Positions 8,121-49,755 of a stretch of DNA of 49,825 nt are shown in pieces (within the stretch, counting starts at the first letter, position 1; each line of letters starts with the position of its first letter). The notes under the pieces are model-generated. The model did not search any database. It worked only from the letters and a program-made list of their open reading frames with translations, and had not been told where the DNA came from. This stretch comes from Chloroflexota bacterium (lineage in GTDB: Bacteria; Chloroflexota; Anaerolineae; Aggregatilineales; Phototrophicaceae), in the NCBI GenBank assembly GCA_028875185.1, contig JAPPFH010000138.1, positions 1 to 49,825 on the forward strand, written 5' to 3'. A program made the translations under genes and the position numbers.

Positions 8121-8146
8121 GGGCGACCCATCGGGTCGCCCCTACA
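8121..8146 (-). repeat. REP-type palindrome
   Basis: GGGCGACCCATCGGGTCGCC followed by CCTACA. It is a compact stem with four unpaired loop bases. Confidence 0.75.
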
Positions 8147-15126: not shown

Positions 15127-15152
15127 TGTAGGGGCGACTCGGTGAGTCGCCC
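15127..15152 (+). repeat. REP-type palindrome, CGACTC/GAGTCG stem
   Basis: TGTAGGGGCGACTC, GGT, GAGTCGCCC. It has the same stem as 44252-44278 in the opposite orientation. Confidence 0.75.
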
Positions 15153-15174
15153 ACCCCCGACATCTTGGAAATCA

Positions 15175-15202
15175 GCGGGCGCGCCACCTGCTCGCCCCTA
15201 CA
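15175..15202 (-). repeat. Degenerate REP-type palindrome
   Basis: GCGGGCG and CGCCCCTACA arms around GCCACCTGCT. It directly abuts the element at 15204-15350. Confidence 0.45.
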
Positions 15203-26609: not shown

Positions 26610-26635
26610 TGTAGGGGCGAGACTTGCCTCGCCCT
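26610..26635 (+). repeat. REP-type palindrome
   Basis: TGTAGGGGCGAGAC, TT, GCCTCGCCC. The stem has one bulge. Confidence 0.65.
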
Positions 26636-26657
26636 AAAGTACGCATTATGACAAGCG

Positions 26658-26684
26658 TGGGCGACCCAATGGCTCGCCCCTACA
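26658..26684 (-). repeat. REP-type palindrome
   Basis: GTGGGCGACCCAATGGCTCG then CCCCTACA. It faces the copy at 26610-26635 across a 22-base spacer, giving a REP/inverse-REP pair. Confidence 0.7.
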
Positions 26685-28324: not shown

Positions 28325-29689
28325 ATGCCAGCGCCGAACTTCAGCAATCGCACGGTCTGGGTGGGCGACAACCTGCACGTCATGCGCGGGATCAATTCCG
28401 AATGCATTGACCTCATTTACCTCGACCCGCCCTTCAATTCCAATCAGGATTACGCCGCGCCCATCGGGTCAATCGCCGCCGGCGCCGCCTTCAAAGACAC
28501 CTGGACGCTGTCGGATATTGACACGCACGAGCACGGCGAGCTGGCCGACCGCAACCCGGCCGCTTACAGCGTGATAGAAGCGGCGCGCAACACCAGCGGC
28601 AAGAGCATGATGAGTTATCTGATTATGATGGCGGTGCGGCTGATCGAGATGGAGCGCATCCTCAAGCCGACGGGGAGCATTTATCTGCACTGCGACCCGA
28701 CGGCGAGCCACTATCTCAAGCTGCTCATGGATGCCGTTTTTGGCGGTGGTAACTTCCGCAACGAGATTACTTGGCAGCGCACCAATGCAAAGGGATTAGC
28801 GAGTAGGAATCTACCAAACAATCACGACATAATGTTGCGATACACTAAGTCCGATAAGTTCACCTGGAATCAACAATATGTTCCGCACGATCCGGACTTT
28901 GTGGATAGATTCTACAAGCACGTCGAAGAAAGCACTGGCAGGCGATACACACTGGACAATCTAGTTAATCCAAATCGAAACAGACCCAATCTAACTTACG
29001 AGTTTCTAGGCGTTCACCGGGTTTGGCGCTGGACAAAAGAACGAATGCAAAAGGCTTATGAAGATGGAATCGTAATTCAGACGAAACCAGGCGCCGTACC
29101 GCGTCAGAAGAGATACTTAGATGAACAAAAGGGAGCGCCGCTTGGCTCTGTCTGGTCAGACATTAAACCAGTGCAATCGCAAGCAAGAGAACGCACCGGC
29201 TACCCCACTCAGAAACCCATCGCCCTGCTCGACCGCATCATCGAAGCCAGCAGCAACGAAGGAGACTTCGTCTTCGATCCCTTCTGCGGCTGCGCGACGA
29301 CCCTGGTCGCCGCCGACCGCCTGGAGCGTCAATGGGCGGGCATCGACTTGTCGCCGCTGGCGGTCAAGCTGGTCAACGAGCGCATCAACGAAGATCGCGG
29401 CGCGCTCTGGGGCGGCGCCAACGTGGTCGACACGCTGCCGAAACGCACCGACCTGGGTGCGCTGCCCAATTACCGCAGTCATCGCCACCGGCTTTACGGC
29501 GAGCAGGAGGGCGTCTGCCTCGGCTGCGACACGCATTTTCCCTTCAAGGTGATGGAGGTGGATCACATCCTGCCCAAGTCGCGCGGCGGGACGGATCACG
29601 CCGAGAACTTGCAGCTGCTATGCACACATTGCAACAAGAGCAAAGGCAGCAGGACGATGGCTGAGTGGCGGGCGGGGCAGTCGATGTAG
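28325..29689 (+). CDS. DNA methyltransferase fused to an HNH nuclease
   Basis: The 454-residue protein has beta-class methyltransferase motifs: motif IV LDPPFNSN (33-40), HCDPTASHYL, TGYPTQKPIALLDRI, then AdoMet motif FDPFCGCATT (~317-326). A C-terminal HNH domain (~385-450) has zinc-type pairs C398xxC401 and C433xxC436 with the catalytic VDHILPKSRGG (His 414). It is related to the MTase-Mrr protein at 12186-13634 but with a different nuclease. The middle (~145-280), likely the target-recognition part, is AT-rich. The stop TAG lies in the GTAG foot of a REP palindrome. It may cut and modify as one chain; not proven. Confidence 0.82.
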   Translation: MPAPNFSNRTVWVGDNLHVMRGINSECIDLIYLDPPFNSNQDYAAPIGSIAAGAAFKDTWTLSDIDTHEHGELADRNPAAYSVIEAARNTSGKSMMSYLIMMAVRLIEMERILKPTGSIYLHCDPTASHYLKLLMDAVFGGGNFRNEITWQRTNAKGLASRNLPNNHDIMLRYTKSDKFTWNQQYVPHDPDFVDRFYKHVEESTGRRYTLDNLVNPNRNRPNLTYEFLGVHRVWRWTKERMQKAYEDGIVIQTKPGAVPRQKRYLDEQKGAPLGSVWSDIKPVQSQARERTGYPTQKPIALLDRIIEASSNEGDFVFDPFCGCATTLVAADRLERQWAGIDLSPLAVKLVNERINEDRGALWGGANVVDTLPKRTDLGALPNYRSHRHRLYGEQEGVCLGCDTHFPFKVMEVDHILPKSRGGTDHAENLQLLCTHCNKSKGSRTMAEWRAGQSM

Positions 29690-29711
29690 GGGCGTCCCAT
29701 CGTATCGCCCA
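29685..29711 (+). repeat. REP-type palindrome supplying a stop codon
   Basis: TGTAGGGGCGTCCCATCGTA then TCGCCCA. Its TAG is the stop of the methyltransferase-HNH gene. Confidence 0.6.
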
Positions 29712-29764
29712 CAAGCAAGATATATGTTGGCTTGCAATTGAGCCACCTGCAACAAATCTCAATC

Positions 29765-29793
29765 TGTAGGGGTGAGCCATTGGGTCGCTCGCC
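29765..29793 (+). repeat. REP-type palindrome left of the RAYT gene
   Basis: TGTAGGGGTGAGCCATTGGG then TCGCTCGCC. The GTAG foot points toward the transposase gene. Confidence 0.65.
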
Positions 29794-29822
29794 TGATCAC
29801 AAATCTTAGAGCCAGATTCCCA

Positions 29823-30347
29823 GTGAGAAACCCGTGCCAATCACGTCCCAATCGCCGCTCCTCACGTCTGAAAGACTACGATTATCGCAGTTCGGGCGTC
29901 TATTTTGTTACCATTTGCGCTATGGAAAAGCGACCGCTATTCGGTTTGGTTCGTGAAGGGCAAGTTCAGCTCAGTGAACTCGGGCTATTAGCAGATAACT
30001 GCTGGAAACAGATCGAGACTGTCCGCAGCGAGATAGCGCTTGACGCCTATATCGTCATGCCAAATCATATTCATGGCATCTTGCATGTTTCTTCGGAAAT
30101 CACGGCGCCAAGGGCGACCTCCGCGGCTCGCGAGTTGACGGCTGGCTCGCTCGGCGCGATTATTGGACAATTCAAAGCAATCGTCACGAAACGCAGTCAA
30201 TTCTTGCAGCCGCCACCAATGCGCCCTATTTGGCAACGAAACTACTATGACCACATCATCCGTAGCGCGGCTGCATTGGAAAAGATCCGCCAATATATTG
30301 TCAGAAATCTGGCCCGCTGGGAGGATGATGAACTGTACATCAATTAA
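29823..30347 (+). CDS. REP-associated tyrosine transposase (RAYT, Y1/HUH)
   Basis: The frame is open from a GTG at 29772, but that would translate the REP hairpin. The GTG at 29823 gives 174 residues beginning MRNPCQSRPNRRSSRLKDYD, close to the usual RAYT N-terminus. Core features are DYRSSGVYFVTICAMEKRPLFG, the HUH motif in YIVMPNHIHGIL, and a C-terminal helix YYDHIIRSAAALEKIRQYIV with a candidate catalytic Tyr. RAYTs are single-copy chromosomal relatives of IS200/IS605 TnpA. They bind and nick REP hairpins with a GTAG foot. This copy is flanked by inverted REPs at 29765-29793 and 30351-30377. Confidence 0.88.
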   Translation: MRNPCQSRPNRRSSRLKDYDYRSSGVYFVTICAMEKRPLFGLVREGQVQLSELGLLADNCWKQIETVRSEIALDAYIVMPNHIHGILHVSSEITAPRATSAARELTAGSLGAIIGQFKAIVTKRSQFLQPPPMRPIWQRNYYDHIIRSAAALEKIRQYIVRNLARWEDDELYIN

Positions 30348-30350
30348 ACG

Positions 30351-30377
30351 CGGGCGAGCCAATGGCTCGCCCCTACA
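30351..30377 (-). repeat. REP-type palindrome right of the RAYT gene
   Basis: CGGGCGAGCCAATGGCTCGC then CCCTACA, a perfect 8-bp stem. It is inverted relative to 29765-29793, so the gene lies between facing REPs. Confidence 0.75.
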
Positions 30378-30415: not shown

Positions 30416-31579
30416 ATGTCCACACGCTCGCCCATGCACCAGCAAATCGACACCTTGCCCGCGCTCGTCCGCGATATCGTCAAGCCCTTTGACGCCTCCG
30501 CCCGCCGCGCTTTCGATTTCGAGACCTGCGCGTCGGTCAAGCGCATCTATCTGGTGGGCTGCGGCGACAGCCACCACGCCCCCGTCGGCGCCGAGCTGGC
30601 CTTCCACCAACTGACCGGCGTACCCACGCAAGCGATGAGCGCCCTGCCCTTCAGCCGCTACACCGCCGGTTACCTGCCCGCCACCGGACCCAAGACCAAT
30701 CTGGTCATCGGCGTCTCGGTCTCCGGCGAGGTCAGCCGCACGATTGAAGCGCTGGATATGGCGCGTCTGGCCGGCGCGACGGCAGTGGCTTTGACCGGCA
30801 ATCCCGGCGGACCGCTGAACGGGGTCGCCGAGAAGCTCTTCGAAACGGCGGTGCCGCCGCTGCCCGATGAGCTGGCGGGCATGGTGGTGCCGGGCATCCG
30901 CTCCTACCTCGCTTCGCAAATCGCGCTGCTGCTGGCCGCTCTGCGTATCGGCGAGGTGCGCGGCAATTTGAGCACCCGCGCCGCCGATGCCGAGCGCGCC
31001 GCCATCGCCGAGTTGGCTGATGTCATTGAGGAGACGATTCAGATCTGTGAGCCGATCGCCGATGAGCTGGTCGATACCTGGAGCGATGCGCCGATCTTCG
31101 AATTCGTCGGCGCCGGCCCGCTCTACGGCGTCGCCATGTTCAGCGCCGCCAAAGTGCTGGAAGCCAGCGGCGACAGCGCCCTCGCCCAGGAGACGGAAGA
31201 ATGGTCGCATTTGCAATATTTCATCGAGGCGACCAATATCCCGACGATCCTGCTCTCGGCAAACGGTTTCGATGCCGACCGTATGGCAGAGGTGGCGCGC
31301 GCCGCCCAGAGCATCGGCAGACCGCTGGCGCTGGTTTCGACCGAAGACGCGACCGCGATTCGCGGCTACGTCAAAACGCTGCTGCCCATCCCGCGTCAGG
31401 CGCCGGAGCGCTACGCCTCGATTGTGTACAGCATCCCGGGCGAGCTATTCGCCGCCGCGCGCGCGGCTGCCATCGGCGCGCCCTACTTCCGCAATTTTGA
31501 GGGCGGCCGCCGGCCTGATTGGGCTGACGGCGCCAGCCAGATCCGTTCGAGCCACATGATTACCGAGTTGAAGCGTTAG
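30416..31579 (+). CDS. Double SIS-domain sugar-phosphate isomerase/deaminase-like protein
   Basis: The 387-residue protein has two SIS domains. The first has VGCGDSHHAPVGAELA and GVSVSGEVSRTIEAL, the phosphosugar-binding loop. The second has EFVGAGPLYGVAMFSAAKVLE and ETEEWSHLQYF. The layout matches the isomerase half of GlmS and AgaS-type proteins, acting on an amino or keto sugar phosphate. GGAAGGA lies about 10 bases before the ATG. The open frame runs upstream into the REP, which is not credible as protein. It has no direct partner and may serve the sugar pathways nearby. Confidence 0.82.
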   Translation: MSTRSPMHQQIDTLPALVRDIVKPFDASARRAFDFETCASVKRIYLVGCGDSHHAPVGAELAFHQLTGVPTQAMSALPFSRYTAGYLPATGPKTNLVIGVSVSGEVSRTIEALDMARLAGATAVALTGNPGGPLNGVAEKLFETAVPPLPDELAGMVVPGIRSYLASQIALLLAALRIGEVRGNLSTRAADAERAAIAELADVIEETIQICEPIADELVDTWSDAPIFEFVGAGPLYGVAMFSAAKVLEASGDSALAQETEEWSHLQYFIEATNIPTILLSANGFDADRMAEVARAAQSIGRPLALVSTEDATAIRGYVKTLLPIPRQAPERYASIVYSIPGELFAAARAAAIGAPYFRNFEGGRRPDWADGASQIRSSHMITELKR

Positions 31580-39690: not shown

Positions 39691-39717
39691 CGGGCGAGCC
39701 AATAGCTCGCCCCTACA
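39691..39717 (-). repeat. REP-type palindrome
   Basis: CGGGCGAGCCAATAGCTCGC then CCCTACA. It differs from the copy at 30351-30377 by one loop-side base. Confidence 0.75.
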
Positions 39718-41993: not shown

Positions 41994-42020
41994 TGTAGGG
42001 GCGGCATATCATGCCGCCCG
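41994..42020 (+). repeat. REP-type palindrome, GCGGCAT/ATGCCGC stem
   Basis: TGTAGGGGCGGCATATCATG then CCGCCCG. Several stem pairs differ from the common version yet still pair perfectly. Confidence 0.75.
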
Positions 42021-42037
42021 CGTTACACAAAGAAATT

Positions 42038-42064
42038 CGGGCGACCTAGTAGGTCGCCCCTACA
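42038..42064 (-). repeat. REP-type palindrome, GCGACCT/AGGTCGC stem
   Basis: CGGGCGACCTAGTAGGTCGC then CCCTACA. It faces the 41994 copy across a 17-base spacer. Confidence 0.75.
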
Positions 42065-42142: not shown

Positions 42143-42169
42143 CGTAGGGGCGTCTCGCTGAGACGCCCG
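42143..42169 (+). repeat. REP-type palindrome, GCGTCTC/GAGACGC stem
   Basis: CGTAGGGGCGTCTCGCTGAG then ACGCCCG. This is a further compensated stem variant. Confidence 0.75.
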
Positions 42170-42191
42170 TTCGTCCTGTCACAGCTTTCGC

Positions 42192-42215
42192 GCGTTTCGC
42201 CGAAACACACCTACA
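42192..42215 (-). repeat. Degenerate REP-type palindrome
   Basis: GCGTTTCGCCGAAACACACC then TACA. It relates to the CGTTT/AAACG group. Confidence 0.5.
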
Positions 42216-44209: not shown

Positions 44210-44236
44210 CGGGCGACCCAGTGGGTCGCCCCTACA
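44210..44236 (-). repeat. REP-type palindrome inside copy 2
   Basis: CGGGCGACCCAGTGGGTCGC then CCCTACA, a perfect 9-bp stem. Confidence 0.75.
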
Positions 44237-44251
44237 TCTTTTGCGCTCCGT

Positions 44252-44278
44252 CGGGCGACTCACCGAGTCGCCCCTACA
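44252..44278 (-). repeat. REP-type palindrome abutting the nested element
   Basis: CGGGCGACTCACCGAGTCGC then CCCTACA. The nested element's end begins at its last base. Confidence 0.75.
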
Positions 44279-49729: not shown

Positions 49730-49755
49730 GGGTCAGCCACCGGCTGACCCCTACA
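49730..49755 (-). repeat. REP-type palindrome, GTCAGCC/GGCTGAC stem
   Basis: GGGTCAGCCACCGGCTGACC then CCTACA. It is the most divergent stem in the set yet pairs perfectly. Confidence 0.7.

Follow-up and report, generated by a model that had tools for sequence, protein, structure and literature searches.

The 49,825-nucleotide stretch analyzed here (hereafter, the window) is a whole contig, JAPPFH010000138.1, of the 4.37 Mb, 158-contig draft genome of a Chloroflexota bacterium (GCA_028875185.1). It contains a gene encoding a REP-associated tyrosine transposase (RAYT), a TnpA_REP-like HUH/Y1 nuclease, located between two facing repetitive extragenic palindromes (REPs) with a GTAG foot. A preliminary description of this DNA had recognized an intact HUH/Y1 gene between facing GTAG hairpins, and this was borne out, the layout being that of a REPtron in a Chloroflexota genome; the hairpins delimited here at 29686-29710, 29766-29790 and 30352-30376 had been placed correctly to within one base at each end. 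The RAYT gene, the relevant segments of its product and the two REPs that enclose it are the following:

29766..29790, + strand: upstream REP of the REPtron, GAGCC-ATT-GGGTC, with one G.G mismatch
29823..30347, + strand: RAYT (TnpA_REP-like HUH/Y1 nuclease), 174 residues from GTG 29823, identified by NCBIfam match, profile, model with Foldseek, and dN/dS
30066..30074, + strand: HUH motif H82-I83-H84, aligned with PEHMH of 4er8
30132..30203, + strand: encodes residues 104-127, with the predicted helix 110-125 and the turn preceding it; candidate REP-stem specificity segment (116 and 119 foremost), from covariation and the model helix
30231..30263, + strand: WQRNYYDHIIR (W137-R147), equivalent of the E. 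coli block W94 Q95 E100 H101 R104 by profile alignment to 4er8
30294..30296, + strand: candidate catalytic tyrosine Y158 (YIVRNLARW), aligned with YI..NP of 4er8
30352..30376, - strand: downstream facing REP, GAGCC-ATT-GGCTC, perfect stem

The open reading frame (ORF) 29772-30347 encodes the sequence MPNHIHGIL. The start of the longest ORF, GTG 29772, falls within the upstream REP, and comparison with homologues makes the in-frame GTG 29823 the likelier start. The NCBIfam model NF047646, 'REP-associated tyrosine transposase', matches the protein with an E value of 1.3e-14 (54.3 bits), and a profile of 24 relatives searched against the PDB found 4er8, TnpA_REP, as the sole match at E <= 0.01. 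The AlphaFold2 model, with a predicted local distance difference test (pLDDT) of 84.7 and a predicted template modeling score (pTM) of 0.80, also shows 4er8 in its REP hairpin-bound form as the top Foldseek match (E 7.5e-7), followed by IS200/IS605-family transposases; identity in the fold alignment with 4er8 is 15%. Across 54 aligned relatives (of 57 rows; L075, L080 and L083 were omitted, and only L080 contains a stop), H84 is invariant and both H82 and Y158 are nearly invariant, with YIxxNPxRW as the relatives' consensus around the tyrosine. The protein has the HUH motif and the single Y1 tyrosine of a RAYT, and is predicted to be catalytic. The E. coli counterpart of the WQ....DH..R block contacts GTAG, its residues being those described in PMC6006769.

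The ratio of nonsynonymous to synonymous substitution rates (dN/dS) is 0.28-0.33 between the window RAYT and its three orthologues, and 0.25-0.33 among all four (174 codons), which points to purifying selection at one locus in four species. The RAYT occupies the same place, just 5' of a SIS-domain gene, in G000, G310, G313 and G262. Among 28 SIS regions of congeners that were fetched, two (G310 and G313) showed a RAYT match, absence being uncertain in some others whose contigs end near the SIS gene. A methyltransferase gene precedes the RAYT in G310, and in G313 no methyltransferase match was found within the 3.2 kb fetched. RAYTs, in contrast to typical insertion sequences, occur in few copies and are inherited at a fixed locus. 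The genome holds two other RAYTs, 42 and 50% identical to that of the window, and the near-identical dispersed copies of IS200/IS605 elements have no parallel here, with no other transposase copy above 50% identity in this draft genome, a kind of assembly that often misses repeats. The window RAYT looks like a resident gene rather than a jumping copy.

REPs and the RAYTs to which they belong

About 26 palindromes in both orientations had been counted previously. Both orientations are present; the number is lower, with 22 distinct sites found by a covariance model (E <= 0.01) that was built from 15 of its 22 sites, opposite-strand duplicates being merged by hand. Hairpins with an exact GTAG foot number 16, versus 0-2 in each of 15 dinucleotide shuffles (sum 8), and seven of the nine stem pairs vary on both sides in 15 aligned REPs (14 distinct), a value that none of 500 shuffles reached. 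A strict pattern found 404 REPs in the draft genome and none in the reversed control. The density of about one per 2 kb, described earlier as very high, is close to that of the window (about one per 2.3 kb) but not to that of the genome, as the 13 strict REPs in the 49.8 kb window amount to 2.8 times the genome mean density.

A 450 kb sample, composed of the window and 20 genome stretches, contained 95 REPs by a wider pattern, and 94 of them were used to study the flanking sequence. In 82 of the 94, GTAG is preceded by T at position -1, as it is at 27% of 343 other GTAGG sites; position -2 is C or T in 73% of the REPs. Upper stems are perfect in 55 of the 95 REPs, loops have 2-3 nucleotides, and the commonest stems are GACCC (10), TACCC (8), GACTC (7), GAGCC/GGGTC (7) and GAGCC/GGCTC (5). 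Neighboring REPs within 150 bp are facing in 13 of 21 cases, 68-79 bp apart, and six of seven tandem neighbors are 40-42 bp apart. The stem GAGCC-ATT-GGGTC resembles a hybrid of the GAGCC..GGCTC and GACCC..GGGTC stems, and its six identical copies in 450 kb suggest exchange between REP families.

Each of the three RAYTs of the genome lies between facing REPs with a stem of its own: GAGCC-ATT-GG[GC]TC, GTTGC-TGY-GCAAC and GTTTC-GCC-GAAAC. The REPs are dispersed throughout the genome, and the perfect stem of the window RAYT accounts for 27 of the 404 strict REPs; its stem, including the mismatched form, accounts for 12 of the 95 in the sample. The preliminary description had proposed the window RAYT as the present or past mobilizer of the whole palindrome family, and this proposal fails because three RAYTs, each with a different flanking stem, are present in the genome and the cognate stem is a minority. 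A model with one mobilizer was therefore rejected, as stems differ between RAYTs and follow the RAYT clade.

Stem matching was studied in 31 genomes of the genus, in which all RAYT candidates were scored and 24 showed RAYT matches. The 61 RAYT loci examined comprise 57 from these genomes and four from G262, a congener from the class sample outside the 31; the duplicates L143 and L159, RAYTs of the window's own genome, were dropped. REPs flank the RAYT on both sides at 47 loci and on one side at 10, and none was found within the scan at four, so that at least one flanking REP is present at 57 of 61 loci; REPs with the GT[AG]G foot flank the RAYT at the window locus. Upstream and downstream REPs belong to the same stem class in 44 of the 47 two-sided RAYTs, compared to a mean of 5.4 and a maximum of 16 in 10,000 shuffles. 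The 13 stem classes were drawn after viewing the stems; a class-free count of identical upper-stem 5-mers on both sides gave 39 of 47 (shuffle mean 5.7, maximum 14). On a tree of 55 of the 61 RAYTs, six pieces shorter than 150 residues being dropped, stem class changes 18 times, with a possible minimum of 13 and 40.4 changes in shuffles (0/200 as low). GTTTC (8), GAGGC (6, with a conserved mismatch), TTGCC (4) and GATTC (3) require one change each, GACCC five and GAGCC three.

At six congeneric RAYTs (L133, L134 and L136-L139), the REPs with GAGGC-GGT-GACTC share one and the same mismatch, which is present on both sides in five of them; at L137 only an upstream GAGGC REP was found, and one upstream REP of L139 reads GGCTC. 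This conserved mismatch recalls the bulged stem of E. coli REPs.

The set from outside the genus drew on the best 80 non-genus places among the class RAYT matches listed. Within L004-L083, 13 loci were set aside as belonging to the genus, L006 among them from caution, and six of the 147 remaining loci were dropped (<140 residues, the same first 140 residues as another, or no match), which leaves 141. A scan that asked for GTAGGGG hairpins within about 350 bp found REPs on both sides of 18 RAYTs, on one side of 50 and on neither side of 73. A shared 5-mer on both sides is present in eight of the 18 (shuffle mean 0.8, maximum 6). The sequence GTAGGGGC was found at 63 of the 68 outside RAYTs with a REP, a proportion that informs only on its eighth letter because the scan already required GTAGGGG. 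In 80 wider relatives, some of them from the genus, a GT[AG]G scan found 23 two-sided pairs, all of which begin with GTAGGGGC, and 16 of the 23 have identical first 13 bases.

The preliminary description expected copy number to track RAYT presence; this holds as a class-wide association of densities, with many exceptions. In 298 genomes of the class, median REP density is 3.6 per Mb in the 138 with a RAYT match (E <= 1e-10) and 0.73 per Mb in the 160 without, where absence is uncertain since the class search mostly scored 12 candidates per genome; the difference has a p value of 2.3e-10 (within-family permutation p 0.0005; Spearman 0.40). The window genome shows the highest density of the 298 (92 per Mb), and the seven genomes with more than 40 REPs per Mb all have RAYTs.

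Cognate stems were counted in the 31 genomes of the genus, with one REP subtracted per flanking cognate side even if it was outside the strict pattern. Median counts with and without the cognate RAYT were 22 versus 3.5 for GAGCC (p 0.079), 10.5 versus 0 for GAGGC (p 0.023), 1 versus 0 for TTGCC (p 0.012), 26 versus 2 for GTTTC (p 0.003) and 35.5 versus 3 for ACCTA (p 0.011), and joint permutations gave p values of 0.006 and 0.0017 for higher counts where the cognate RAYT is present.

Equal abundance of the stem in relatives that never carried this RAYT type had been named as evidence against the preliminary proposal. GAGCC REPs are indeed at least as abundant as in the window genome (27) in G307 (66) and G314 (64), in which no RAYT of the clade was found; these genomes may have carried one earlier, and the loops partly differ, as none of the listed GAGCC REPs of G307 has an ATT loop. 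G307 also contains 51 GAGGC REPs. Stems that are abundant without their RAYT look like relics, and the 20 copies of the mismatched GAGGC REP in G191 and 28 in G322, two genomes with no RAYT match, are candidate relic populations. In G302, 84 GAGCC-stem REPs are found together with a short RAYT piece that has GAGCC-type REPs and was not placed on the tree.

RAYT residues covarying with the REP stem

Covariation was analyzed between RAYT columns and six features, loop length and stem positions 9-13, in 52 RAYTs of the genus (three without REPs were dropped from the 55) and in the 68 RAYTs with a REP from outside the genus, which are at most 56% identical to genus RAYTs. In the genus, 26 of the 36 top covarying columns fall in residues 104-127, for the most part in helix 110-125 of the model (null with whole stems simulated along the tree 8.2 ± 3.7, 0/400 as high). 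This region was chosen after the genus result and fixed beforehand for the outside set, in which 14 of the 36 top columns fall within it (same kind of null, 3.3 ± 2.0, 0/400). A scan-corrected test over all regions gave 0/400 with the six features and 2/400 with the three inner stem positions, the features being simulated apart. Independently simulated features understate the variance, and we therefore relied on a joint null in which whole stems were simulated along the RAYT tree.

Under the joint null, the mean over features gave a p value of 0.0017 in both sets, the floor of 600 simulations, and segment enrichment of the per-column z scores for the joint stem gave p values of 0.073 in the genus and 0.0017 outside it. 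By joint-stem z score, residue 119 (z 6.0) ranks first in the genus, and residue 116 (z 6.7) ranks first outside it. For loop length and then positions 9 to 13, p values were 0.018, 0.073, 0.24, 0.005, 0.067 and 0.0017 in the genus, and, listed after the same features, 0.0067, 0.032, 0.0033, 0.010, 0.0017 and 0.0017 outside it. With the exception of position 13 (column 64), the first-ranked column of every feature lies within the segment in the outside set. Particular residues also accompany particular stems: RAYTs with GTTTC have G119 in 8/8 and R116 in 7/8, those with GAGGC have Q112 and H116 in 6/6, and those with ACCTA/ACATA have R119 and I123 in 5/5. A helical periodicity (p 0.004 and 0.012) was not used, as it may be plain amphipathicity.

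These results make residues 104-127 of the RAYT, notably 116 and 119, the candidate main site of stem specificity. K82 of helix alpha3 makes the contact with the REP bulge in E. coli TnpA_REP, and a role of this helix for perfect-stem REPs is presented as speculative (PMC8266576). Helix 110-125 would be the equivalent of alpha3, because the model places it between the strands that carry HUH and WQ. We give even odds to the more specific proposal that residues 104-127 (helix 110-125 together with the turn before it), and chiefly 116 and 119, help to specify the upper stem and loop, and that GTAGGGGC is a shared handle.

Other features of the window and related systems

The genes next to the REPtron and the remaining REPs described in the window are the following:

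28325..29689, + strand: N6/N4 DNA methyltransferase with a C-terminal HNH domain, upstream neighbor (context)
29686..29710, + strand: REP with an imperfect stem, whose GTAG contains the TAG stop of the methyltransferase-HNH gene
30417..31579, + strand: SIS-domain gene, downstream neighbor and synteny anchor; start ATG 30417 chosen, listed ORF from 30362
8121..8145, - strand: single REP, GACCC stem
15128..15201, no strand: facing REP pair, REPIN-like, 74 bp
26611..26683, no strand: facing REP pair, 73 bp
39692..39716, - strand: single REP
41995..42063, no strand: facing REP pair, 69 bp
42144..42214, no strand: facing REP pair, 71 bp
44211..44277, - strand: two tandem REPs 42 bp apart, with different stems
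49730..49754, - strand: single REP, stem variant CAGCC-GGT-GGCTG

The methyltransferase-HNH gene ends with an in-frame TAG supplied by the GTAG foot at 29686-29689, and the methyltransferase gene of G310 (locus L115) also ends at GTAG, followed by a degenerate REP-like stretch. Several congeners have a methyltransferase-HNH gene, possibly a restriction-modification gene, close to the SIS gene. The contig ends, 1-50 and 49771-49820, form a 50-base inverted repeat, as though the assembly broke at a repeat. No window match was found in Rfam at gathering thresholds, and PHROGs gave no match.

T. roseum is a Chloroflexota species. GTAG repeats had already been reported in Chloroflexi, with GTAG-23 in T. 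roseum (PMC3733652); in the portion of that source available, the window genus and its RAYT/stem pairs were not found named. RAYTs, REPtrons, REPINs, their coevolution, cognate abundance and leftover REPs are all described in the literature (PMC2817692, PMC3686654, PMC3116915, PMC6006769, PMC8266576). Among the closest described systems is TnpA_REP subclass 2.4 (PMC6006769), which shares a short protein (median of 194 residues there, 174-191 here), the motifs NH[IFV]H and WQ, and a distribution scattered over phyla; its REPs are likewise long, have a GTAG foot and close the bottom of the stem with three G-C pairs. The window protein, which has NHIH and WQ, differs from it in having no insert and in showing YIVRNL for YIxNNP, the consensus of the 24 relatives being YIxxNP; the REP insertion in the gene that is predominant, if not universal, in that subclass is absent, as hairpin and covariance scans found no REP inside 29823-30347. 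Membership in subclass 2.4 is a tentative reading of the motifs described for it.

The E. coli TnpA_REP and its REPtron Ec (4er8; PMC8266576) resemble this system in the predicted fold, the HUH motif and tyrosine, the block WQ....[ED]H..R, the GTAG foot and the cleavage context, which is CT-like here and CT in the published TnpA_REPs (PMC8266576). E. coli REPs have a bulged stem, whereas here more than half of the sampled upper stems are perfect, with their short loops, and there are several RAYTs per genome. The RAYT/REP classes of Stenotrophomonas and Pseudomonas (PMC2817692, PMC3686654) show the same coevolution of RAYTs with flanking REPs, cognate abundance that depends on the RAYT, REPs left after RAYT loss, and orthologous RAYTs with different REPs. 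They differ from those described here in phylum, in RAYT group and in the GTAGGGGC core, and the portions of those papers available contain no amino acid positions tied to REP stems. REPINs (PMC3116915) are likewise facing doublets, with 71 bp between 16-mer starts in the GI doublets of SBW25 and 68-79 bp here; excision is reported there from population sequencing. A literature search of titles and the beginnings of abstracts, which covered few subscription papers and no supplements and is no proof of absence, found none that ties RAYT residues to REP stems by covariation. Coevolution is known for Pseudomonas and Stenotrophomonas, and the addition made here is the residue-level mapping of stem specificity by covariation.

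Interpretation

We consider, with a probability of about 0.78, that the window gene is a resident, vertically kept RAYT (TnpA_REP) with its own facing REPs, and that it mobilizes mainly REPs of the cognate stem, a minority of those in the genome. The RAYT would bind REP hairpins as single strands, its WQ....DH..R block reading the GTAG foot, and helix 110-125 with the preceding turn could help to read the variable upper stem and loop. The HUH/tyrosine center is predicted to cut at the YT dinucleotide immediately 5' of GTAG, and this cutting would copy or move cognate REPs, frequently in the form of facing pairs some 70 bp long. Since a RAYT clade would act mainly on the stem type specific to it, the window RAYT would account for a minority of the REPs; the remaining ones could belong to the other two RAYTs or be relics of RAYTs that were lost or are unassembled.

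Several observations weigh against this reading. The NF047646 score is below the curated cut-off of the family (80 bits), in a model typed 'equivalog' that may be narrower than the RAYT family; Pfam-A showed no match to the protein, and a single-sequence PDB search found none at E <= 1. The window RAYT has YIVRNL in place of YIxxNP and a mismatch in its upstream REP, and may thus be a copy that is losing its activity. A clean empty site was sought between the methyltransferase and SIS genes of congeners and no base-precise junction was found, because the eight congeners that have both genes and no RAYT in the stretch fetched carry 0.6-1.4 kb of other sequence there (read by eye). The G262 orthologue has GACCC upstream and GAGCC downstream, and specificity may therefore be looser than one stem. 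No GTAGGGG hairpin was found within about 350 bp of 73/141 RAYTs from outside the genus, and no GT[AG]G hairpin at 22 of the 80 wider relatives. Among 60 genomes with at least 10 REPs per Mb, 16 have no RAYT match, among them the congener G191 with 117 REPs. The abundance of GAGCC with its cognate RAYT is not significant alone, and the five genomes counted as cognate include G302 and G304, whose GAGCC-flanked RAYTs may belong to a clade other than that of the window RAYT; furthermore, the copy-number tests are only partly corrected for shared descent. In the covariation analysis, joint-stem enrichment is weak in the genus, three of its six single features exceed 0.05, and in four of the six the top-ranked genus column does not lie in the segment (column 67 for the loop; columns 162, 76 and 140 for positions 10-12). 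Entropy-normalized mutual information with the joint stem, a measure that favored hypervariable columns, showed no segment enrichment (0 and 2 of 15).

The shared GTAGGGGC foot at the start of all 23 two-sided pairs means that one enzyme could in principle act on all REPs, the stem being irrelevant, and hybrid stems exist and flank the window RAYT itself. A single mobilizer of the whole family is nevertheless very improbable, given three RAYTs with three stems in one genome, stems that follow the RAYT clade and the low share of the cognate stem both among strict REPs and in the sample. The flanking match could instead be inherited baggage, passed on by descent or gene conversion, of a protein that does not read the stem: flanking REPs are physically linked and co-inherited, the match to the tree would follow from linkage alone, and conversion could homogenize the facing copies. 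We regard this as improbable, as REPs of the cognate stem elsewhere in the genome are commoner when that RAYT is present, and covariation is concentrated in one segment, beyond the whole-stem tree null, in two separate sets.

A decaying and inactive RAYT among fossil REPs, kept only as intergenic spacer or transcription terminator, is rather unlikely. It would explain the mismatched upstream REP, the NL in place of NP and the longer branch of the window RAYT (0.44, versus 0.12-0.34 for its three orthologues), and roles of REPs in transcription termination have been hypothesized (PMC3733652); however, the frame of 174 codons is intact, the HUH motif, the tyrosine and the WQ....DH..R block are kept, and dN/dS against the orthologues is low (0.28-0.33).

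The window RAYT, as a resident gene with its own REPs, is one of several RAYT genes that are each matched to their own repeat type, an added example of a known system. Before REPs are attributed to a particular RAYT, they need to be sorted by stem. Recognition of perfect-palindrome REPs by RAYTs was left open in PMC8266576; the genus provides 57 RAYT loci that have a REP on one or both sides, in 13 stem classes, a resource that makes recognition a question of residue swaps, and so many naturally occurring gene-repeat pairs indicate which part of the enzyme may do the hairpin reading. If this reading is true, genomes carry several orthogonal RAYT/REP pairs told apart by few residues, and the set of REPs in a genome would record, as fossils do, which RAYTs it formerly carried.

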